From Cellvibrionales bacterium (GTDB lineage: Bacteria > Pseudomonadota > Gammaproteobacteria > Pseudomonadales > JAHEGP01), in NCBI GenBank assembly GCA_024645065.1, contig JAHEGP010000005.1, positions 1 through 32,082 on the forward strand: a stretch of DNA of 32,082 nt. Direction: 5' to 3'. Numbering within the stretch: position 1 is the stretch's first letter; each line of letters begins with the position of its first letter. Positions 5,853 through 7,410 of this stretch are shown here, one piece after another. Made by a program: the position numbers and the translations under genes. The notes under the pieces were generated by a model that was given only the letters and a program-made list of their open reading frames with translations, was not told where the DNA came from and did not search any database.

Positions 5853-6006
5853 ACGCCTGGACGCCTGCATACACTGATCCAAAGCCGGTGGCACTGCTGC
5901 TTTGCCCGGTCGCGTGTTATTCTTGGCGTCTGACAAGGCACGAGATGCGCACATTTTGATCGGCGACTACTATGCCGCATTTAAACTCTCTCCCCAGGAA
6001 TTCGCA

Positions 6007-6444
6007 ATGACCAAACATATGCCACAATTGCTGTCTGTGATGACCCCATTCCCCTATGCTATCGACGTCGAACAAACCGTCGACGAAGCGCTGGCGATGA
6101 TGCAGAAGCATGATATCCGCCATCTCCCGGTGATGATCGAGGGCACCATTGAAACCCTTGTTTCTGATCGCGACGTGAAGCGCGCCCAACTCATTGGCCA
6201 TCGAGGCGCTGCAGATGCCGGCATGCTGGTGGGAGACATTTGCCCGGCCTCGGCCAACTTCGCCGACGTCCACGATCCGCTGGACCAGGTGCTGGAGCTG
6301 ATGATTGCGCATCGAGTGGATGCCCTTATGGTACTGCGAGATGGCGACCCGGTAGGCATCTTTACCGATACCGACGCCTGCAAAACGCTGATCGCCCTGC
6401 TGCGCCAGGTCTACCCGGAGCCGGGCGAGGACGACGTCGCCTGA
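6007..6444 (+). CDS. CBS-domain protein
   Basis: Two CBS repeats: VMTPFPYAIDVEQTVDEALAMMQKHDIRHLPVM and ANFADVHDPLDQVLELMIAHRVDALMVL...GIFTDTDACKTL. Confidence 0.88.
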   Translation: MTKHMPQLLSVMTPFPYAIDVEQTVDEALAMMQKHDIRHLPVMIEGTIETLVSDRDVKRAQLIGHRGAADAGMLVGDICPASANFADVHDPLDQVLELMIAHRVDALMVLRDGDPVGIFTDTDACKTLIALLRQVYPEPGEDDVA

Positions 6445-6515
6445 GCCGCACTATTCCCCGGCCGCAAGCAGGCTTTCGACGATTAAAGCCGCACGGCGCG
6501 CCGTCCGCCCTTGCC

Positions 6516-6681
6516 TAGGAGTCAGTCGGACTTGGGGGTTCGTAGCGAGGCGAGTGGGAAAGCGAGTACATTTTGACGCGATTTTGAGGCGCATAGTGGG
6601 GCTATGTAACGAGAAATCGCGTCAAAATGGGCCGGTGTCCCGCCGCCGCAGTAGAATCAGTCTAAGTCCGACAGACTCCTA
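6516..6681. repeat. MITE/REP-like nested inverted-repeat element
   Basis: 18-bp terminal inverted repeats taggagtcagtcggactt (6516-6533) / aagtccgacagactccta (6664-6681), 17/18 matched; inner perfect 16-bp arms cattttgacgcgattt (6569-6584) / aaatcgcgtcaaaatg (6614-6629); central catag/ctatg hairpin. Confidence 0.85.
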
Positions 6682-7260
6682 AACTCCTTGCTTATGCAGG
6701 AATCGTTCGCGATTGGCCGCGCTGGCCTTGTCGGTTTTTTTCAGCATCACATAAAGTGCCCCGGCACCACCGTGGTAGGGCTGGGCGCTGTGGTAGGCAA
6801 GCACTTCGGGTATATCCCGTAGCCAGTGAGCGACAAAACTTTTGAGCACGCCTGCCCGGGGAGAGCGGTCGCCTTTGCCGTGAAGAACCATCACGGCCCG
6901 CAGCTGGCATTCCATGCAGTCCTGCAAAAACGCCCACAGCTCGCTGCGGGCTTGCTCGACCGAGCGGCGATGCAAATCCAGGGTGGCTTCCGGCTCATAG
7001 CGTCCGCGACGCAATTTCCCGAATACGCCGTGCTGTACCCCGGGGCGCACAAAACTGATGATGTCGTGGGGACCGAGTTCGGGCGCATACTCGGTTGACA
7101 GGAAATTGCCCTGAACCGGCCCTTCTGCTACCGCAGCCCGGCGCCGTTGCTCAAGACCCGACTGCGCCGGCCTATCGGGCGCCAGCATAACTTTGTCGCG
7201 CGGTTTCAGCGGGGTCACATCCCCCATTTCATCTGCGAACTGTGTTTCTTTGTCTGACAT
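6679..7260 (-). CDS. Smr (MutS2-like) domain endonuclease family protein
   Basis: LDLHRRSVEQARSELWAFL, VMVLHGKGDRSPRAGVLKSFVAHWL, YHGGAGALYVMLKK; start MSDKETQF at 7260. Confidence 0.87.
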   Translation of the reverse strand: MSDKETQFADEMGDVTPLKPRDKVMLAPDRPAQSGLEQRRRAAVAEGPVQGNFLSTEYAPELGPHDIISFVRPGVQHGVFGKLRRGRYEPEATLDLHRRSVEQARSELWAFLQDCMECQLRAVMVLHGKGDRSPRAGVLKSFVAHWLRDIPEVLAYHSAQPYHGGAGALYVMLKKTDKASAANRERFLHKQGV

Positions 7261-7410
7261 GCCCGTTCCGCGTTGGTTCGCCCCCATGTGCCGCTTCTTT
7301 CGGCAGGGGTGTGCAAATCACTCAACCATCCATGGAATACTGTTCCACAAGCTGTGCGGCCCACCGTGGATTTCAGCCCTGCGCGCTGCCTGAGCGAGGC
7401 GTGCGGCAAT

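Follow-up and report, generated by a model that had tools for sequence, protein, structure and literature searches.

A 162-bp palindromic mobile element in an smr stop codon, most likely an IS1182-type MITE from a family of nearly fixed length

MITEs are usually viewed as decayed, lineage-specific deletion products. ERIC, Correia (NEMIS), and REP-BIME sequences are short and palindromic, occur in high copy number, and are mostly intergenic. A MITE linked to the IS1182 family has already been reported, namely MITEPye1 from Paracoccus yeei, which is 159 bp long (PMC11578231). The staphylococcal IS1182-family elements IS1272 and TnSha1 target hairpins, which are replaced or partly deleted without any duplication (PMC5678879, PMC4923244). 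The element described here was found in a 32,082-nucleotide stretch of DNA from a Cellvibrionales bacterium (the window), which is contig C61 of an assembly (G000) of 3.1 Mb in 353 contigs that is 87% complete.

Architecture, copies, and insertion sites

The outer arms of the element (6516-6533 and 6664-6681) are 18 nt long and complementary at 17 of 18 positions. They enclose a perfect 16-bp inverted repeat (6569-6584 and 6614-6629) and an apical CATAG/CTATG hairpin, all of which were found where a sequence-only reading of the same DNA had placed them. That reading also noted that TA stands beside both ends if the arms are read as GGAGTC...GACTCC, and the two TA copies were located at 6516-6517 (context C-TA-G) and 6680-6681 (context C-TA-A); empty sites in the family identify them as copies of a duplication. 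The mobile unit is redefined as GGAGTC...GACTCC, spanning 6518-6679 of the plus strand (162 bp, with the CGTAGCGAG half first), in line with its copies, its boundaries, and a family length of 161-163 bp. The left terminal inverted repeat (TIR), GGAGTCAGTCGGACTT (6518-6533, plus strand), has one mismatch to the family. The right one, GGAGTCTGTCGGACTT, occupies 6664-6679 and reads on the minus strand, and IS1182 elements end like both. Further inward, the conserved internal-loop motif CGTAGCGAG (6541-6549) faces a second conserved motif, CGCAGTAG (6647-6654), both on the plus strand and in near-invariant columns of the family alignment A1. The plus-strand arms of the inner repeat form a covarying stem (helix 5, with two-sided changes in all 22 pairs), and the alignment and covariation place a conserved GAGGCG - CATAG..CTATG - TAACGA block at the apex (6586-6613, limits approximate, plus strand).

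The element sits between the ends of two convergent genes, a placement on which Pfam matches and coordinates agree with the earlier reading. The CBS-domain gene (5902-6444, plus strand; PF00571) stops 73 bp before the element. The smr gene (6679-7287, minus strand) encodes an Smr domain protein (PF01713, 90 bits), and its stop codon is the insertion site: this TAG (6679-6681, minus strand) is composed of a TA copy and the terminal G of the element. As had been claimed, no internal ORF resembles a transposase; smr excepted, the ORFs overlapping the element are at most 92 aa long, and none reaches transposase length.

A search with positions 6500-6700 retrieved seven full copies from G000, which are 98-99% identical. 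The assembly is also broken within the element, leaving pieces of it at the ends of contigs C123, C220, C144, C317, and C125. G001, the one congener in the dataset, carries no copy. The window element is a mobile element, and the proposal that it is non-autonomous and duplicates TA is supported by its copies (it is multi-copy, not single-copy, in G000), by its TIRs, by empty sites of family members in relatives, and by insertion sequences (ISs) with the same ends. It has the features of a MITE, being short and free of a transposase ORF, with TIRs, dispersed near-identical copies, a TA duplication with an empty site in family members, and an autonomous element sharing its TIRs.

Empty sites were found by comparing the flanks of sampled elements with all loci in the dataset. 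In one relative (G285), the occupied site GCGGTC-TA-[162 bp]-TA-GGCCCC has an empty paralogue, GCGGTCTAGGCCCC (GCGGTC-TA-GGCCCC), revealing an exact TA duplication in CTAG. In a second (G163), CA and TG flank the element where the intact empty paralogue has a single TA at the junction. The paralogous empty sites of these two relatives support the proposed insertion at TA. Among 146 sites, TA was read at 228 of 292 element ends and on both sides at 96 sites, 88 of which are C-TA...TA-G. At the other 8 of the 96, the base outside TA differs on one side; a duplication of 2 bp (TA) is thus favoured over one of 4 bp (CTAG), and the latter was rejected. In altered TA copies the outer base is usually the changed one (CA on the left, TG on the right). 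The sides can also change jointly, as CA...TG was found at 5 of 92 sites, which plain post-insertion mutation does not readily predict. At one locus (L041:1338-1664) a tandem pair of MITEs has one TA in common, i.e., insertion occurred beside an existing copy.

The target of the window copy is C-TA-A, and the inferred empty sequence CCTTGCC-TA-AACTCC would likewise yield TAG for smr. The Smr protein (...RERFLHKQGV) ends close to where that of the congener does (...RERFLHKRPDHRD); the empty site of the window copy was sought in this congener, where the region downstream of smr is non-syntenic. Throughout the family, 52 of 262 ends have an ORF of at least 120 codons that terminates precisely at the junction TA|G, compared with 7 and 15 ends at which such an ORF runs up to the junction in the other two frames. 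Of the 116 sites whose flanks are long, 41 show this stop-codon placement on at least one side. Moreover, 24.7% of CTA ends lie at an ORF end versus 6.4% of the remaining CTAG sites of those loci (odds ratio 4.8), a background that also counts CTAG inside genes, from which insertions would be purged. Roughly one in three insertions, the window copy included, lies in a TAG stop codon and restores it. The position of the window element between convergent genes is therefore explained by tolerance, because the CTAG target and the leading G of the element regenerate TAG stop codons. This accounts in a simple way for insertion at the ends of genes without harm, and since the smr TAG is rebuilt, the placement can be understood without invoking a host function.

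Family extent, length, and fold

Related elements were found in 15 of the 295 genomes of the order, G000 counted. With the TIR pattern, G163 yielded about 95 elements and G185 yielded 70; a reversed TIR control pattern yielded 0. At class level, 49 of the 369 genomes contain the exact TIR, and for the phylum the count is 44 of 399. A pattern combining the TIR with CGTAGCGAG retrieved at least 108 stretches from GTDB contigs, whose hosts include Endozoicomonas, Pseudomaricurvus, Pseudomonas, Thioalkalivibrio, Nitrosomonas, Thiobacillus, Parazoarcus, Thiodiazotropha, Mariprofundaceae, Desulfuromonadales, and one MAG labelled Verrucomicrobia. The same pattern retrieved nothing from viral contigs, a phage scan for the element found nothing, and plasmid scans yielded two copies only, both on Pseudomonas plasmids. 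A length of 161-163 bp was found for 148 of 183 sampled elements (TIR pairs less than 300 bp apart). As judged from sequence, this is one ancient family across Gamma-, Beta-, and Zetaproteobacteria and Desulfuromonadales, with a length nearly fixed at 162 bp.

Several variants were seen alongside the main form. Internally deleted short palindromes that keep both TIRs (L166, L165, L084, L257, L236, and others; 51, 61, 76, 77, and 91 bp) are rare compared with the 161-163 bp form. A 58-bp stretch (L022:1501-1558, on contig C30 of G019) is 78% like the apex region and has no recognisable TIRs; G019 has no other match. MITEs from several genera carry an inserted 47-bp repeat, ACGACTGCATGGATGCAGGAGGTAGAGCAACGCAGGAGCAGTTGCCG, at nearly the same point of their CGCAGTAG motif (L406:1001-1075, L362, L083, L074, L168, L068, and L261), and four tandem units of it are present at L219:1160-1345. 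This repeat looks like a STAR- or REP-like unit targeting the MITE interior. In G185 (L227), a MITE-like stretch that also contains this repeat ends abruptly beside an IS630 locus, suggesting nested insertions.

Folding of both strands, which had been suggested as a check, gave results far outside chance. The RNA fold of the window element has a free energy of -96.4 kcal/mol (z = -11.9), the other strand reaches z = -9.0 and the DNA fold z = -10.3, and no shuffled sequence folds as well. In alignment A1 (43 representatives, less than 88% identical), 39 of 57 consensus pairs show two-sided compensatory changes and 93.8% of cells are paired. The covariation score is 0.488 versus 0.173 for shuffles, of which 0 of 500 scored as high, and it is at most 0.151 with the partner slid. 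TIRs aside, the most conserved columns are the facing loops CGTAGCGAG/CGCAGTAG, GAGGCG...AACGA, and the apex. For pairs picked by Watson-Crick complementarity only, changes to GU outnumber those to AC by 163:79 in the deep alignment A1 and by 42:17 among cluster consensuses, a strand effect that is suggestive only, with few columns and related sequences behind it. Within young copy clusters the ratio is 54:49. The CGTAGCGAG strand folds better in 16 of 17 cluster consensuses. These results are taken to mean that constraint acts on the lineage while it is active, not on copies once they are inserted. The structure seems to belong to the mobile lineage as a whole and not to individual insertions, and the fold is inferred to serve mobility.

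Long near-perfect palindromes, of which the element is one, are known substrates of template-switch (quasi-palindrome) correction. Its arms could be kept complementary in this way during replication while the fold has no role, as the lack of strand preference among pair changes in young copies would allow. This reading competes only with the inferred role of the fold and is considered rather unlikely. The columns of the mismatched internal loops rank with the most conserved ones instead of being corrected away, the length is locked at 161-163 bp, and the deep excess of GU over AC on one strand is not predicted by template switching alone.

It had also been suggested that the element acts as a bidirectional terminator or a host RNA, i.e., that a host-beneficial structure is retained between convergent genes. 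The hairpin is indeed real and conserved, and its very stable fold, its covariation, its better-folding strand, and the frequent placement of elements directly after stop codons are all compatible with such a function. However, no intrinsic-terminator signature was found at the element, and the orientation of neighbouring genes relative to it is random (23/22/21/21, based on ORFs without a gene finder); therefore a host role is not supported. In addition, the equal GU and AC changes in young clusters make inserted copies look unconstrained, and Rfam contains no match above the gathering score, the weak miRNA hits far below it only reflecting the hairpin shape. This explanation is very improbable.

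An IS1182-type partner

In the survey of the class, two TIRs were found 1.56 kb apart in one genome (G643). They bound a 1563-bp unit with perfect 16-bp TIRs and CTA/TAG flanks, which encodes a 452-aa transposase. This protein belongs to IS1182 according to NCBIfam NF033551 (374.8 bits, cut-off 270) and contains PF05598 (DUF772) and PF01609 (DDE) domains. Relatives of this IS with the same ends and flanks are found in G266 (62% identity) and Pseudomonas sp. CC6-YY-74 (58%) and include ISAzo2, and they occur on several plasmids as well (P. aeruginosa, Marinobacter, Methylobacter, and Polaromonas). The search proposed earlier for an IS sharing the TIR was thus successful. IS1182 ends differ from MITE ends by 0-5 mismatches summed over both ends, and a GCAG end variant of some MITEs (G163, G226) recurs in the IS ends of ISAzo2, P. 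aeruginosa, Marinobacter, and Polaromonas. An IS1182 transposase accompanies the MITE in the same genome in G266, which carries the IS1182 element and about 30 MITEs, and in G300. Several MITE-rich genomes contain IS1182 fragments only. No IS1182 transposase gene was found in G000, an 87% complete assembly that could miss a repeated IS owing to its breaks at the element. IS and MITE have only the terminal 16-18 bp in common, with nothing obvious shared inside the TIRs.

Two other sets of TIR pairs were set aside. Pairs 0.5-2.5 kb apart that were first noticed in loci proved to be partial TIRs occurring by chance. In G801 (L399, contig C28), facing MITE ends 1.54 kb apart flank ordinary chromosomal genes, judged by eye to be peptidase U32-like and Ca/cation antiporter-like, and the pair was rejected as a further IS; it is possibly a composite unit.

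With IS1182 elements bearing the same 16-bp ends and flanks, the element is very probably an IS1182-type MITE, moved in trans by an IS1182 transposase, rather than one of IS630 or REP/RAYT type. Mobilisation by another transposase, either IS630/Tc1-mariner or a RAYT/REP-type Y1 enzyme, is extremely unlikely: TA duplication is typical of IS630, the sub-terminal motifs contain a conserved GTAG that would suit a Y1/RAYT enzyme, and all but one of 15 genomes examined have a Y1_Tnp match, but 8 of 15 carriers have no IS630 DDE_3 match, so that an IS630 partner was rejected as not tracking the element, the RAYT partner tracks it poorly and is unsupported (Y1_Tnp is reduced to a fragment in E. elysicola, G302, and to a stop-containing remnant in G000), a duplicated TA is not a Y1 signature, and the ends equal those of IS1182 base for base.

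For the IS1182-type MITE, the proposed mechanism begins with the transposase, which would bind the 16-bp ends GGAGNCTGTCGGACTT and presumably excise or copy the unit. This would then insert at the TA of CTAG, duplicating TA as observed in a family member, and the 162-bp element would in this way be mobilised in trans. The folded element, as a DNA hairpin or cruciform or as a transcript of one strand, may be needed for mobilisation or favour it, so that fold, loops, and length would be maintained. In a more specific version, which is quite unlikely, the conserved fold would be part of the transposition machinery: IS1182 transposases would recognise one particular strand in single-stranded form, as an RNA transcript or as ssDNA, with its fixed internal loops, and the MITE would be a structure-guided DDE element. 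If true, this would account for the GU excess in the deep lineage, its loss in young copies, and the length lock.

Comparison with known systems

In the open-access literature searched, the TIR was not found printed in this context, and within that literature the family is apparently undescribed. The P. fluorescens R200/R6 repeats are 320 and 177 bp long and their sequences are not printed, and no link to them is claimed. IS1182-linked MITEs as such are known; what is new is the extent of the family, its length lock, and its conserved structure. In several proteobacterial classes and in Desulfuromonadales, a gene-less element has kept both its length and the fold of the whole molecule, at up to about 95 copies per genome, and its presumed transposase shares just 16-18 bp with it and is often undetectable in the host genome. 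With this family it can be asked whether IS1182-family DDE transposases, among which IS1272 is reported to act on hairpins, read the structure of DNA or RNA.

The present family differs from ERIC, Correia (NEMIS), and REP-BIME in its termini, hosts, and lengths, and its mobiliser is probably of IS1182 type. IS1272 and TnSha1 resemble it in their IS1182 transposase and in the central place of DNA hairpins in transposition (PMC5678879, PMC4923244). However, IS1272 swaps a target stem-loop without duplication, whereas the present family duplicates TA in CTAG; stem-loop replacement of the IS1272 type was rejected, as TA is duplicated at the G285 empty site. MITEPye1, compared by description only, is similar in lacking an ORF, in its 18-bp TIRs like those of the IS1182-family ISPye18, in its intergenic location, and in its long stem-loop, but its description covers one alphaproteobacterial species, with 1-3 copies and reported 4-bp direct repeats (PMC11578231). 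Intact ISAzo2-like IS1182-family elements share with the MITE the terminal 16 bp and the CTA...TAG flanks, but they are 1.55-1.62 kb long, carry a transposase gene, and have an interior without obvious similarity to the MITE.
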